Origin: Catenuloplanes indicus
Lineage (GTDB): Bacteria > Actinomycetota > Actinomycetes > Mycobacteriales > Micromonosporaceae
NCBI RefSeq assembly: GCF_030813715.1
Contig: NZ_JAUSUZ010000001.1
Coordinates: forward strand, 5,394,001-5,458,000
Length of the DNA: 64,000 bases
Reading direction: 5' to 3'
Shown here: positions 10,816-43,710 of the stretch, one piece after another
How positions within the stretch are numbered: position 1 is the stretch's first letter
Layout: each line of letters begins with the position of its first letter
Program-made: the position numbers and the translations under genes
Notes under the pieces: generated by a model
What the model saw: the letters and a program-made list of their open reading frames with translations, nothing else
The model's database searches: none
What the model was told of the DNA's origin: nothing

Positions 10816-11889
10816 TTACGCGGCCAGGCGGTGCGTGCCGGCCGCGGAACCGCGCGACTTCAGGCTCATCACGAACGCCAGCACCTTCGCCACCGCGCCG
10901 TAGAACTCGGCCGGGATCTCAGTGCCGATCTCGCAGCTGCCGTAGAGCGCGCGAGCCAGCGGCACGTCCTGGATCATCGGGATCCGGTTCTCGGTCGCCA
11001 GGTCGCGGATCTTCTGCGCGATGTTGCCCTGCCCCTTCGCGACCACCCGCGGCGCGCCCTTCTCCGGCTCGTAGCGCAGCGCCACCGCCACGTGCGTCGG
11101 GTTGACCAGCACCACGTCCGCCTTCGGCACGTCGGACATCATCCGGTTCCGTGCCATCGCGTGCTGCCGAGCCCGGATCTGGCCCTTGACGTGCGGGTCA
11201 CCCTCGGTCTTCTTGTACTCGTCCTTCACCTCTTGCTTCGACATCTTCAGCTGCTTCATGGTGCGCATCCGCACCACGAAGTAGTCGGCCGCGGCCATCA
11301 CCAGGCCGGCCACCGCGGCGGTCCGGATGATCGCGATGGTGGCGTCCTTGACCATGTCCAGCAGCACCGCGAGCGGCAGGTTGCCGGCCGTCATCAGCGA
11401 CGGCACCAGGTCCTTGATCTGCATGTACAGCACGCCGGCCAGCACCAGCGTCTTGACCAGCGCCTTGACGCCCTCCCAGATCGCCTGCATGCCGAGGATC
11501 CGCTTGAAGCCCTGCAGCGGGTTGAGCCGGGAGAACTTCGGCATCAGCAGCTTGGTGGCGACGTGGATGCCGCCCTGCGCGCCCGAACCGGCGATGCCGA
11601 TCAGCATCATCGCGACCGCGAGCGGCGCCACCGCGTACGCCGAACCCAGCAGGGCGTCCCGGAACATGTCCAGCGCGGACCCGACGTCCGGTCGCTCGAC
11701 CACGTCCGGCAGCCGCAGAATCACCTCGCGCGCCTTCTCGACCGCCTTCTCCAGCGTCATCGGCACCAGCACGCTGGCCGCCGCGATGCCGGCCCAGGCA
11801 CCCAGGTCCGGCGTCTTGCCGATCTGGCCCTCTTCGCGGGCCTTCTTGAGTTTCTGTGGTGTGGGTTTCTCGGTCTTCTCGCCGCTCAC
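10816..11889 (-). CDS. flhB: Flagellar export switch protein FlhB
   Basis: 357 residues: a charged N-terminus (MSGEKTEKPTPQKLKKAREEG), four membrane helices, then a cytoplasmic domain. The self-cleaving NPTH motif is at about residues 263-266 (VNPTHVAVALRY). FlhB switches export from hook-type to filament-type substrates together with the ruler FliK. It lies 16 bp downstream of fliR and is probably co-transcribed with fliQ1-fliR. A promoter motif for flhA begins at its very end. Confidence 0.96.
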   Translation of the reverse strand: MSGEKTEKPTPQKLKKAREEGQIGKTPDLGAWAGIAAASVLVPMTLEKAVEKAREVILRLPDVVERPDVGSALDMFRDALLGSAYAVAPLAVAMMLIGIAGSGAQGGIHVATKLLMPKFSRLNPLQGFKRILGMQAIWEGVKALVKTLVLAGVLYMQIKDLVPSLMTAGNLPLAVLLDMVKDATIAIIRTAAVAGLVMAAADYFVVRMRTMKQLKMSKQEVKDEYKKTEGDPHVKGQIRARQHAMARNRMMSDVPKADVVLVNPTHVAVALRYEPEKGAPRVVAKGQGNIAQKIRDLATENRIPMIQDVPLARALYGSCEIGTEIPAEFYGAVAKVLAFVMSLKSRGSAAGTHRLAA

Positions 11890-11905: not shown

Positions 11906-12673
11906 TCAGGCCCCGGATAGGGTGACGACCGCGGAGACCGCCTTCTCGACGATGACGTCCAGCGCGCGTGGCAGCACCGCGATCGCGGTACCGCCCAGCA
12001 TCAGCACCAGGAAGATCTTGGCGGGAAAGCCGAGCGAGAACGCGTTGAGCGCCGGCGCCACGCGGTTCAGCAGGCCGAAACCGACGTCCGTGAGGAACAG
12101 CACCGCGATCAGCGGACCGGCGATCTGGATCGCGGCCAGGAACATGTCCACCACGCCCTCGGTGAGCAGCCGGGACAGCGTCTCCAGGGACAGCGTGTCG
12201 TTCAGCGGCAGCGAGGTGTACGACATCATGAAGCCGCGCAGCACCATCTGGTGCCCCTCGGTCGCGAACAGCAGCGTCACGGCCAGCAGGTTGTAGAACC
12301 GGCCGAAGATCGAGCTTTGCACCTGGGACAGCGGGTCGAACGCCATGGCCAGTGTGAACCCGCCGAACAGGTCGATCATGTCACCGGCTGCCTGGATCGC
12401 GGCGAACAGCAGCGCGGTGATGAAGCCCAGCGCGGCGCCGACCAGCACCTGCTCGACCACGGAAACGAGAAGAGCCGATGTCGCCAGCTCCGGCACCTGA
12501 CCGGCGAGCTTGGGCGACATCGGCAACGCGAGCGCGAGGGCGAGCAGGGCCTTGATCCGGGCCGGGATCAGCCGCGAGTTGAACGGCGGGCAGAGCGCCA
12601 GCCACGCGGACGCGCGAACCATGGCGAGCAGCAGCGCCGTGAGGTTCGCCGTCTGCAACTCCATCGACACCAT
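11906..12673 (-). CDS. fliR: Flagellar export gate protein FliR
   Basis: 255 residues, strongly hydrophobic, with five or six helices and the FliR-typical start (MELQTANLTALLLAMVRAS) and core blocks such as RVAPALNAFSLGFPAKI. It is part of the FliP5Q4R1 export gate in the basal-body membrane. It is 19 bp from fliQ copy 1 and 16 bp from flhB. The upstream codons MVS may be skipped in favour of ATG GAG at 12664, because MELQT is the usual start; this would shorten it by three residues. Confidence 0.95.
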   Translation of the reverse strand: MVSMELQTANLTALLLAMVRASAWLALCPPFNSRLIPARIKALLALALALPMSPKLAGQVPELATSALLVSVVEQVLVGAALGFITALLFAAIQAAGDMIDLFGGFTLAMAFDPLSQVQSSIFGRFYNLLAVTLLFATEGHQMVLRGFMMSYTSLPLNDTLSLETLSRLLTEGVVDMFLAAIQIAGPLIAVLFLTDVGFGLLNRVAPALNAFSLGFPAKIFLVLMLGGTAIAVLPRALDVIVEKAVSAVVTLSGA

Positions 12674-12692
12674 CGCCCGGCCCGGCCCCCGC

Positions 12693-12962
12693 CTACCCGA
12701 GAAGGCTCGGGATCCGCTCGAACAGGTTGTGCGTGAAGGACATCATCTCGTGCAGCATCCAGTTGCCGCTGACCAGCAGCGCGACGCCACAGGCGATGGC
12801 CTTGGGCACGAAGCTGAGCGTAGCCTCCTGGATCTGGGTCACGGACTGGAACAGCGAAATGGCGAAGCCGATGGCCAGCGCGGTCAGCAGAACGGGCGCG
12901 CACAGCTTGGCCGCGATGGTCATGGCCTCAAGCCCGAGATGCACAACCTGCGTGTCCGTCAA
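12693..12962 (-). CDS. fliQ: Flagellar export gate protein FliQ, copy 1
   Basis: Taking the TTG at 12962 gives 89 residues, the standard FliQ length, starting TDTQVVHLGLEAM and spanning two helices. GGAAGG lies 7 bp before the TTG. A longer in-frame reading to 13010 is possible but would extend beyond the family N-terminus. A second fliQ (13660-13929) encodes a protein differing by only two residues, near the C-terminus (Asn/Gln, Glu/Asp), while the DNA differs at about 29 positions. This copy leads the fliR-flhB unit and has its own upstream region. Confidence 0.93.
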   Translation of the reverse strand: MTDTQVVHLGLEAMTIAAKLCAPVLLTALAIGFAISLFQSVTQIQEATLSFVPKAIACGVALLVSGNWMLHEMMSFTHNLFERIPSLLG

Positions 12963-13007
12963 GGTTTCGCCTTCCGTCGAGTTCCGCGGCGGCTCGTGCC
13001 CCGCTGA

Positions 13008-13067
13008 CAACTACTCTCCGCCGCGCCCGTCGCAGCCCGGTTACCCTCCCGGTCACCGCTCGGTTGC
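13008..13067 (-). promoter_or_regulatory. Direct-repeat activator-type site and promoter of fliQ copy 1
   Basis: Read on the minus strand: GCAACCG (13067-13061), 4 bp, GTGACCG (13056-13050). A third related heptamer, GTAACCG, is at 13044-13038. TAGTTG, a possible -10, is at 13013-13008. The repeat lies 88 bp from the TTG, the same distance as its counterpart upstream of fliQ copy 2. The 11-bp period resembles the TcrA box I recall from Actinoplanes missouriensis; I have not checked it against the literature. Confidence 0.5.
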
Positions 13068-13613
13068 CACGCCACTCCGCCGCCCCACATCGCCCGACAC
13101 CGCGGACACCCGCCGGTGTACGCCAACCGCAGACCGGCGCCGCATCGCCGCTTCGGCCGCCGTCCGGACCGGCTCTACGCCACTTGCGACCATCGCGACT
13201 CGCTCGCGTTCGCCCTTCCACCGCCCCGTGGGAATCGCAGCCAGCCCGGGTCCGTGACTGCTTTCCGCCCGCCTTTGCTCTGCTTACATGCACAAAGCAC
13301 GCGAATCGGCAGTCAGGGAGCGGCGTGCGCGCCGGCGGTTTGGAGGGTTTTGTTCATGTAAGCAGAGCAAAGCGCGCGCGGGAGGGGGCGGGGTGGTGCG
13401 GGTTGCGGCGCGTTGTGGGAGGTGAGAGACGTGGGAATCGCGAGGGTTGGTGAGTGGCTGGGACCGGCTCCGGCGCGGCGGCCGGAGCGGAGCGGAGCGC
13501 CAGCGGAGTCGGAGGCCTCCGCGCGGTTTGCCCGCGGGAGCATGCCCATCGCGACCACGCCGGGAGCGGGAAGATCGGTTTGGGGGGTTTCTGAGGTATT
13601 TGGGAGAAAGGGA
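13068..13613. other. Non-coding stretch between the two fliQ copies
   Basis: I find no convincing gene here: frames are open only through high GC, and none has a ribosome-binding site and recognisable product. It contains repeat copy B (13273-13372). A further copy of the element's inner motif, CGGTTTGGGGGGTTT, is at 13576-13590. The 12-mer CGTGGGAATCGC is repeated directly at 13227-13238 and 13430-13441, flanking copy B. The purine-rich right half (13373-13540) differs in composition from the genes around it. Confidence 0.6.
13273..13372. repeat. Inverted-repeat element, copy B
   Basis: CTTTGCTCTGCTTACATG (13273-13290) is the perfect reverse complement of 13355-13372, an 18-bp terminal inverted repeat in a 100-bp unit. 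The inner right arm CGGTTTGGAGGGTTTTG (13336-13352) matches copy A with one or two changes. The inner left arm (CACAAAGC, AATCGG) resembles copy C. It lies between the two fliQ genes. Confidence 0.82.
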
Positions 13614-13645
13614 GCAGGGCCCGGGTGGGGGAACCCGGGCCCTGC
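13614..13645 (-). terminator. Terminator after fliQ copy 2
   Basis: GCAGGGCCCGGGT (13614-13626) pairs perfectly with 13633-13645 around a 6-nt loop, 14 bp downstream of the fliQ2 stop on the minus strand. It closes the fliM-fliN-fliO-fliP-fliQ2 unit and separates it from fliQ1-fliR-flhB. Confidence 0.75.
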
Positions 13646-13659
13646 GGAGGAAGGACGTG

Positions 13660-13929
13660 TCAGCCGAGGAGGCTGGGGATGCGGTCGAAGAGCTGGTGGG
13701 TGAAGGACATCATCTCGTGGAGCATCCAGTTGCCGCTGACCAGCAGGGCGACGCCGCAGGCGATGGCCTTGGGGACGAAGGAGAGCGTGGCCTCCTGGAT
13801 CTGGGTGACGGACTGGAAGAGGGAGATGGCGAAGCCGATGGCCAGCGCGGTGAGCAGAACGGGTGCGCAGAGCTTGGCCGCGATGGTCATAGCTTCGAGC
13901 CCGAGGTGCACGACCTGCGTGTCGGTCAA
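13660..13929 (-). CDS. fliQ: Flagellar export gate protein FliQ, copy 2
   Basis: 89 residues from a TTG at 13929, with GAAAGG 7 bp upstream. The protein is the same as fliQ copy 1 except for Gln and Asp in place of Asn and Glu near the C-terminus. About 26 of roughly 29 nucleotide differences are silent, many exchanging a G-ending for a C-ending codon. The two upstream regions also align without gaps for about 105 bp. Here fliQ stands in its normal place after fliP, but it is followed by a terminator and not by fliR. Both copies look intact and under selection. Confidence 0.93.
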   Translation of the reverse strand: MTDTQVVHLGLEAMTIAAKLCAPVLLTALAIGFAISLFQSVTQIQEATLSFVPKAIACGVALLVSGNWMLHEMMSFTHQLFDRIPSLLG

Positions 13930-13974
13930 GGTTTCGCCTTTCGCCAGCGGTGTGCGGGGCGTTTGCCCCGCTGA

Positions 13975-14034
13975 GAAGTAATCTCCGGCACCGGCGTGGC
14001 GGGACGGGTACCGGCTCGGTGGCCGGCCGGTTGC
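13975..14034 (-). promoter_or_regulatory. Direct-repeat activator-type site and promoter of fliQ copy 2
   Basis: Minus strand: GCAACCG (14034-14028), 4 bp, GCCACCG (14023-14017), then TACTTC at 13980-13975 as a possible -10, 36 bp after the repeat. Between them and the TTG a hairpin GCGGGGC-GTTT-GCCCCGC occupies 13954-13971. The spacing to the start codon (88 bp) is the same as for fliQ copy 1. It lies in the fliP-fliQ2 gap. Confidence 0.5.
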
Positions 14035-14039
14035 AAGGG

Positions 14040-14813
14040 TCAGCCGTAGCTGCCGACGAGCGCGGTGATCACCAGGCCCCAGCCGTCGACGAGCACGAAC
14101 AGCAGCAGCTTGAACGGGAGGGCCACGGTGACCGGCGGCAGCATCATCATGCCCAGTGACATCAGTGACGCGGACACCACGATGTCGATGATGAGGAACG
14201 GGATGAAGATGACGAAGCCGATGATGAACGCGGCGCGCAACTCGGACAGGATGAACGCGGGCACCAGCGTGGTGAGCGGTACGGCGTCCGGGTTGGCCGG
14301 TTTCTCGGCGTCGGCGACCTTGGTGAGCAGCGCGATCTCGTCCGGGCGGGTGTGCTCGAGCATGAACGCGCGCAGCGGGCGCACGCCGTCGTTGAACGCG
14401 GCGGTCTGGTCCTTGTCGCCCTTCAGGTAGGGCTGGACCCCGGTCGCGTTCACCTCGGACAGCACCGGGCTCATGATGAAGAACGTGATGAACAGCGCCA
14501 GGCCGGCGATCACCTGGTTCGGTGGCATCGAGGTGAGGCCGAGCGCGTTGCGGGTGATTCCGAGGACCATGAACACCTTGGTGAAGCACGTGCAGAGCAG
14601 CAGCAGCGCGGGCGCGACGGACAGCAGCGTGAGGCCGATCAGCAGCACGATCGAGGTGGACGGCTGGCCGGCGTCACCGCCGCCGTTGATGTTGATGTCG
14701 ATCGTGCCGGCGTCGGTCGGCTGCGGCGCGGGCGCGGCCGCGACCGACGCGGGGCTGATCAGCAGCAGCGCGCCGAGCAGGAGCAGTAGTGCGACCGTAC
14801 GCCTCGCGGTCAT
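14040..14813 (-). CDS. fliP: Flagellar export gate protein FliP
   Basis: 257 residues with a cleavable-looking signal peptide (MTARRTVALLLLLGALLL), a short periplasmic part and four further helices. Family signatures are FTKVFMVLGITRNALGL and MPPNQVIAGLALF; the C-terminal block contains GMMMLPPV. FliP forms most of the FliPQR export channel. Its ATG overlaps the fliO stop by 4 bp (14810-14813). It is separated from fliQ copy 2 by 110 bp that contain regulatory motifs, an unusual gap for a gene pair that is normally tight. Confidence 0.96.
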   Translation of the reverse strand: MTARRTVALLLLLGALLLISPASVAAAPAPQPTDAGTIDININGGGDAGQPSTSIVLLIGLTLLSVAPALLLLCTCFTKVFMVLGITRNALGLTSMPPNQVIAGLALFITFFIMSPVLSEVNATGVQPYLKGDKDQTAAFNDGVRPLRAFMLEHTRPDEIALLTKVADAEKPANPDAVPLTTLVPAFILSELRAAFIIGFVIFIPFLIIDIVVSASLMSLGMMMLPPVTVALPFKLLLFVLVDGWGLVITALVGSYG

Positions 14814-43401: not shown

Positions 43402-43710
43402 TGCTTACCTGCATAAAGCGGGCAAATCCGCGCCAGCTCCGCCGCGTCGCCGGCTGCTTGGGCGTGATGCGCCCGAATGTCCCCATGTCCCCCAGCCGGC
43501 CGGTGAGCCGTCCCGGCGGGCTGCTGCGACCACCCACGCGTCGGTTCCGGCGCGGCGGAGGCGGTCAGGGGGATCCTTTATGACGATATTTCGGGTACGA
43601 AGCGCCCGCTGCCCCCGGCTCCAGCCTGCGAAGCCGGGATCGCGGCAAGCCGAAGTAGCGCTGAGCTGAGCGTCGGCGGGGTGTCGACGCTGCGGGTAAG
43701 CAGAGCAAAA
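43402..43710. repeat. Inverted-repeat element, copy C (diverged)
   Basis: The left end TGCTTACCTGCATAAAGC (43402-43419) and the right end GTAAGCAGAGCAAA (43696-43709) are the same ends as copies A and B but lie 309 bp apart. The left outer CTTTGCTC is lost. The right end is 7 bp from the response-regulator stop codon. The interior has no gene I can support: short open frames there lack ribosome-binding sites. It may be a decayed copy with an insertion, or two half elements. Confidence 0.55.

Follow-up and report, generated by a model that had tools for sequence, protein, structure and literature searches.

The genes of the flagellar export gate usually lie in operons and are treated as single-copy genes. 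In Actinoplanes missouriensis, a solitary fliQ outside the flagellar cluster was reportedly found by Jang et al. in 2016, and the case described here is alike in that fliQ can stand apart from other flagellar genes; it differs from that report, which reportedly deals with one copy in one species, in the presence of up to three coexisting copies, in recurrent sites and in homogenisation of the copies, and, in the genus examined first, Catenuloplanes, in a tandem pair within the operon. We found no description of multicopy fliQ in the literature searched, which left supplements and most subscription journals outside its scope; no account of the multicopy, homogenised state of fliQ appeared there, whereas the solitary fliQ of A. 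missouriensis has reportedly been published. In the parts consulted of a 2023 phylogenomic survey (PMC10746217), FliQ is a single-copy gene and serves as a single-copy marker for flagellated species. A parallel is offered by the concerted evolution of tufA/tufB and 26 prokaryotic genes (Wang and Chen 2018; PMC6053082), whose paralogues, in the consulted parts of that article, occupy different conserved contexts and are closer within genomes than across them; among these same parts, the gene tables list flagellin (fla) and not fliQ. Unlike the cases presented there, the fliQ unit comprises a promoter region as well, no longer occupies its place in the operon, and lies at a site that differs between lineages. 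Lastly, the consulted part of a report on the TcrA regulon of A. missouriensis (PMC12691653) gives the TcrA box as a direct repeat upstream of the gene, nnGCA(A/C)CCG-n4-GCA(A/C)CCGn; a similar direct-repeat box precedes the fliQ genes described below, although these boxes are imperfect and putative, being predicted from sequence.

The window, that is, the whole stretch of 64,000 nt analysed (contig NZ_JAUSUZ010000001.1 of Catenuloplanes indicus, positions 5,394,001–5,458,000; genome G000 in what follows), contains, as originally predicted, two intact fliQ genes on the minus strand, each encoding 89 residues from a TTG start: a fliP-side copy, designated P (CDS 13929–13660), and a fliR-side copy, designated R (CDS 12962–12693). 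Both sit between fliP (14040–14813), the upstream neighbour of P, and fliR (11906–12673), the downstream neighbour of R, with flhB at 10816–11889, all of them also on the minus strand. The two products score 93.5 (P) and 93.6 bits (R) with the FliQ equivalog model TIGR01402 (cut-off 88.9) and fall below the cut-off of the SctS model (66.3 and 65.8; cut-off 76.5), and the R product matches the FliQ chain sequence of 19 structure entries, including 6f2d, over residues 3–90 (E 1.3e-20).

The similarity of both copies extends beyond the gene. We delimited a module comprising the box, the promoter region and fliQ through its stop codon, which spans 13660–14034 for P, beginning about 5 bp past the stop codon of fliP, and 12693–13067 for R (minus strand; repeat pairs D1 and D2). 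The copies align without gaps, always 967 bp apart, over 280 nt with 90% identity and over a further 71 nt upstream with 72%, in agreement with an earlier estimate of some 105 bp of ungapped upstream alignment; the P stop codon and the R start codon are 697 bp apart. The coding sequences differ in 29 of 267 nt, as had been counted before, and the deduced proteins in two of 89 residues near the C-terminus (Q80/N80 and D82/E82). Three of these changes, altering two residues, had been considered non-silent, whereas the Nei-Gojobori method (dS 0.494, dN 0.026) yields five non-synonymous changes, because a change between the Ser codons AGC and TCC is scored as two non-synonymous steps.

Every one of the five genomes of Catenuloplanes gave two FliQ matches and one FliR match. 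Four of them (G000, G001, G003 and G004) carry two intact fliQ genes between fliP and fliR, with 858–991 bp from start to start, and we rejected an artefact of the window assembly since the single-contig genomes G001, G003 and G004 repeat the arrangement. Disrupted copies in other strains, which had been named together with such an artefact as evidence against the observation, do occur in the draft genome G002, where the two copies are on separate contigs, one after fliP and the other before fliR; each is missing its 3′ end and around 40 nt at nearly the same place, and the remaining sequence is almost the same in both. These disruptions, which are near contig ends and also affect the start of fliR, look like an assembly error, and the copies from G002 were excluded from trees and difference tables.

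The eight intact copies of Catenuloplanes cluster in a single clade (support 100/99) that is separate from the other taxa included in the trees. Acquisition of one copy from a relative by horizontal transfer had been suggested as an alternative to duplication, and would agree with the many silent differences between the window copies, but it is contradicted by this single clade and we consider it extremely improbable. Inside the clade, the R copies from the different species group together (86/97), and the duplication therefore predates the species; a clade of P copies was neither shown nor rejected (p 0.11). The opposite scenario, in which each species underwent its own recent tandem duplication followed by silent drift, is quite unlikely. 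A topology with the P and R copies of a genome as one clade was rejected for three of the four genomes (G000, p 0.011; G001, p 0.041; G004, p 0.007), even if rejection failed for G003 (p 0.21), and the dS between P and R in the window, 0.49, is higher than every dS between species at the same position (0.08–0.24). In terms of nucleotides, the R copies of G000 and G004 differ in six positions and P and R of G000 in 29.

The scenario of recurrent duplications does find some agreement in the distribution of individual changes. Over the 267 coding columns on which this grouping rests, informative columns per genome pair number 5 to 15 by position and 1 to 7 by genome, and in one of the six pairs, G001/G003, the latter prevail (7 to 5). 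Of the 25 by-genome counts, 17 fall within nt 194–237, and codons 65 and 74, as well as the corresponding residues, vary between genomes and agree within them. The copies thus group mainly by position, with patches that group by genome, which suggests that partial gene conversion replaced stretches of one copy with sequence from its partner. As to their maintenance, between-copy dS values of 0.22–0.49 with dN/dS of 0.05–0.15 support that both copies are held by purifying selection, and, together with the presence of two copies in all five genomes and the R lineage, bear out the idea of an old duplication retained by selection. The high dS and low dN of the window genome might also be ascribed to selection maintaining silent differences against recombination between direct repeats 967 bp apart; however, the sister genomes show lower between-copy dS (0.22–0.29) at a similar spacing, and this reading has in our view hardly any likelihood.

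Both copies are preceded by a putative TcrA-type direct-repeat box on the minus strand: GCAACCGgccgGCCACCG for P (14017–14034), with one mismatch and starting 105 nt before the start codon, and GCAACCGagcgGTGACCG for R (13050–13067), with two mismatches and likewise at −105. Boxes with two mismatches are common in the window (20 found versus 10.1 expected by chance), so the evidence resides in their conserved position rather than in the match alone; the best match lies at −103 to −105 in seven of the eight intact copies from Catenuloplanes, that is, in all but the P copy of G001. The promoter consensus that Jang et al. reportedly proposed in 2016, CTCA-N15-17-GCCGAA, occurs exactly at two places in the window, neither of them at fliQ, where we found only degenerate matches. 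The direct-repeat box predicted at the outset for both copies corresponds to the TcrA-type boxes given above. The R copy has the promoter-like element GTCA-N17-GCGGAA (12982–13008, minus strand), which matches 8 of 10 positions and is weak when taken alone. Across the genus, the R copies score 8, 9, 8 and 8 of 10 against 7, 7, 8 and 7 for their P partners, and the best P matches in G000 and G001 fall elsewhere within the 160 nt.

Fourteen nucleotides past the P stop codon there is a perfect 13-bp G+C hairpin (13614–13645, minus strand), terminator-like and with no T run, and the 75-nt stretch containing it folds at −31.5. The hairpin is also present in G001 and G004, with a T run in G004, and is absent from that place in G003; a sigma-70 and strict terminator scan of positions 12600–14100 returned nothing and left this hairpin uncalled. 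From this layout, the P copy would be expressed with fliM-N-O-P in a transcript ended by the hairpin, while the box and promoter of the R copy would start a fliQ-fliR-flhB unit; loss of the R promoter would therefore be expected to silence fliR and flhB. The FliQ subunit of the FliP-FliQ-FliR export gate would be supplied by both copies alike, and either dosage or a second promoter, as first put forward, is a plausible benefit of having two of them.

A search of 354 genomes of the family retrieved 93 with fliQ: five of Catenuloplanes, 67 of the genus Actinoplanes and 21 others. These 21 have one copy each, which lies between fliP and fliR in all 11 whose neighbourhood was read. Likewise, 49 of the 50 fliQ-bearing genomes in a class-wide sample of 394 are single-copy, the exception being the window genome. 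Of 175 relatives, the best 80 were kept. Two of the taxa illustrate different organizations of the operonic gene. In Pilimelia, fliQ starts a few bases after fliP and has no recognisable box; in Spirilliplanes, the single operonic fliQ has a TcrA-type box at −61 and CTCG-N17-GCCGAA at −36, the same layout as in the Actinoplanes units described below. The fliQ tree is poorly resolved (starred inner branches, 41 of 95) and fails to join the copies from the genus Actinoplanes in one clade.

None of the 67 Actinoplanes genomes has a fliQ between fliP and fliR. Both of these genes are single in all 67. In 66 of them, the distance from the FliP stop codon to the first FliR codon aligned is −6 to 51 nt, and in the remaining one, G041, the FliR match is partial. 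Instead, fliQ is found elsewhere, as one copy in 47 genomes, two in 16 and three in four, and none of the 91 copies is accompanied by FliM, FliN, FliO, FliP, FliR, FlhB or FlhA on the stretch fetched around it (mostly 5–6 kb per side, less at contig ends). According to their flanking genes, 22 copies are at site S1, 14 at S2, 11 at S3, 18 at S4, 10 at S5, 10 at S6 and two at S7, plus four at singleton sites; S4 consists of three variants (11, 4 and 3 copies) joined by one flank only. S1, flanked by an ABC-transporter gene and by one of the glyoxalase family, is where the single fliQ of G045, which we take to be A. missouriensis, is located; S2 is beside pdxS, with the fliQ unit in three arrangements; S4 adjoins maleylpyruvate-isomerase-like and ROK genes, and S6 is between luciferase-like and RNA-ligase-like genes. 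On the FliP-FliR tree, the distribution of the sites requires at least three changes for S1, eight for S2, five for S3, six for S4, five for S5 and two for S6.

Almost all of these units carry putative control sequences of their own. All 91 units reach a TcrA-box score of 11 or more out of 14, which is attained by 66 of 910 shuffles and by 20 of 90 stretches of DNA 1 kb upstream; a promoter score of 8 or more out of 10 is reached by 77 of the 91, compared with 154 of 910 and 10 of 90, respectively. Their position is also recurrent: among the 80 units whose box scores at least 12, 61 have it at −60 or −71, and among the 77 whose promoter scores at least 8, 58 have it at −35. A TTGAGG-like motif near −89 is not general, as 58 of 91 units match one of its three spellings anywhere in 140 nt. 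Possession of its own box and promoter may be what made fliQ portable.

The copies that coexist in an Actinoplanes genome are mostly almost identical. Within genomes, 26 of 28 pairs differ by 0–9 nt and 22 of 28 encode identical proteins, whereas differences between genomes have a median of 52 nt; since their minimum is 3 nt, close relatives overlap the within-genome range. The exceptions are one pair from G014 (15 nt) and that from G071, with 34 nt and 14 residues; not every multicopy genome is therefore homogenised. Both copies of G071 (L159 and L160) are intact, and could represent an escape from conversion or functional divergence.

This likeness holds for copies at orthologous sites. In 35 quartets formed by two genomes and two shared sites, which have genomes in common and are thus not independent (S4, S4b and S4c being kept apart), 920 coding columns group by genome, four by site and three are crossed, and all 35 quartets favour grouping by genome; columns from the promoter region (−60 to −1) distribute as 358, 14 and 6, respectively. 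Apart from G071 and G014, paralogues at orthologous sites therefore group by genome, also at synonymous positions, as in concerted evolution. As an example, the flanks at S1 and at S6 are 85–92% identical between G047 and G048, and S1 and S6 have nothing in common beyond the module. Even so, the two fliQ copies of either genome differ from each other by 1 nt, as against 8–10 nt when the same site is compared between both genomes. Collapse of draft assemblies was rejected as the source of this signal, because the 12 quartets whose genomes have both copies on one chromosome-size contig total 307 columns by genome and one by site. The original prediction had left it to be decided whether the copies pair by position or by genome, and the answer depends on the lineage: mainly position, with patches by genome, in Catenuloplanes, and almost purely genome (920:4) in Actinoplanes. 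From these comparisons of extant sequences, ectopic gene conversion is what best explains the within-genome likeness at orthologous sites in Actinoplanes.

A different account of the same likeness would be repeated fresh insertion of the unit at the same sites, by a site-specific mobility, without conversion. It is in keeping with the limits of within-genome homology, which ends at a median of −94 from the start codon (quartiles −146, −92) and +50 from the stop codon (30, 63), close to those of the functional unit; these values are for 27 of the 28 pairs, leaving out G061, and the edges are medians that are not sharp in every pair, since several alignments extend at low identity past the module. 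Also in keeping with it are the existence of more than one arrangement of the fliQ unit beside pdxS and the state of the empty sites. In 42 empty loci (12 of S1, nine of them showing both neighbours, and 30 of S2) we found no match to FliQ or to any other of eight fli/flh proteins, and DNA matches to the fliQ unit were limited to five scraps of 25–35 nt. Coverage of the S2 loci was variable: in 13, pdxS and pdxT are divergent with their interval covered; in 16 they are codirectional and the place upstream of pdxS is partly covered; and one shows no pdxS. However, ten conserved neighbours scanned match no transposase family, there is no tRNA at the 50 loci scanned, which also led us to reject tRNA-targeted integration, and it is improbable that independent re-insertion underlies 22, 14, 11 and 10 copies at S1, S2, S3 and S6. 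We hence see fresh insertion as unlikely, and favour conversion between established copies. An RNA copy made from the promoter of fliQ itself was rejected as the vehicle as well, on the reasoning that the module includes the box and the promoter. A further reading, a nomadic fliQ module with dedicated copying to new sites, copies kept identical and subsequent loss of the old sites, is unlikely; were it true, the location of an essential export-gate gene would turn over continually across the genus.

At the S2 loci (for example, L127 and L130), the relative orientation of pdxS and pdxT also varies among Actinoplanes genomes, some having them divergent and others codirectional.

Taken together, we find it probable that a tandem duplication of the fliQ unit as old as the genus occurred in Catenuloplanes and that, in Actinoplanes, portable units were relocated and homogenised. 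The window would then hold a duplicated autonomous transcription unit, composed of a TcrA-type box, a promoter region and fliQ, and the gain of this switch would have had two outcomes, tandem within the operon in Catenuloplanes and dispersed in Actinoplanes, where multicopy genomes may be intermediates of a relocation that proceeds by copying, homogenising and losing. In these genomes, one of the three gate genes, fliQ, and not those for FliP or FliR, became self-contained, multiplied and moved. The series from Pilimelia (operonic, no box) through Spirilliplanes (boxed) and the Catenuloplanes tandem to Actinoplanes (dispersed and lost from the operon) is a natural one, in which the route of an operon gene towards independence can be followed, and it could serve to quantify, in bacteria, ectopic gene conversion and what this contributes to the relocation of genes.

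Two further repeats were observed near fliQ genes. In G061, two fliQ loci (L131 and L132) on the same contig are duplicated in inverted orientation, separated by about 20 kb and with 99.9% identity over the 3.3 kb compared around fliQ. In the window, an inverted-repeat element with arms CTTTGCTCTGCTTACATG is found in the spacer between both fliQ copies (13273–13372), at 585–694 and, with three mismatches, at 43693–43710. Arms similar to CTTTGCTCTGCTTACATG also appear in G068, where they are upstream of fliQ, and in the vicinity of fliQ in G002, and across the window genome the arms have 23 matches with at most one mismatch, against none for the reversed control, 16 of which fall inside about 0.31 Mb around the window.
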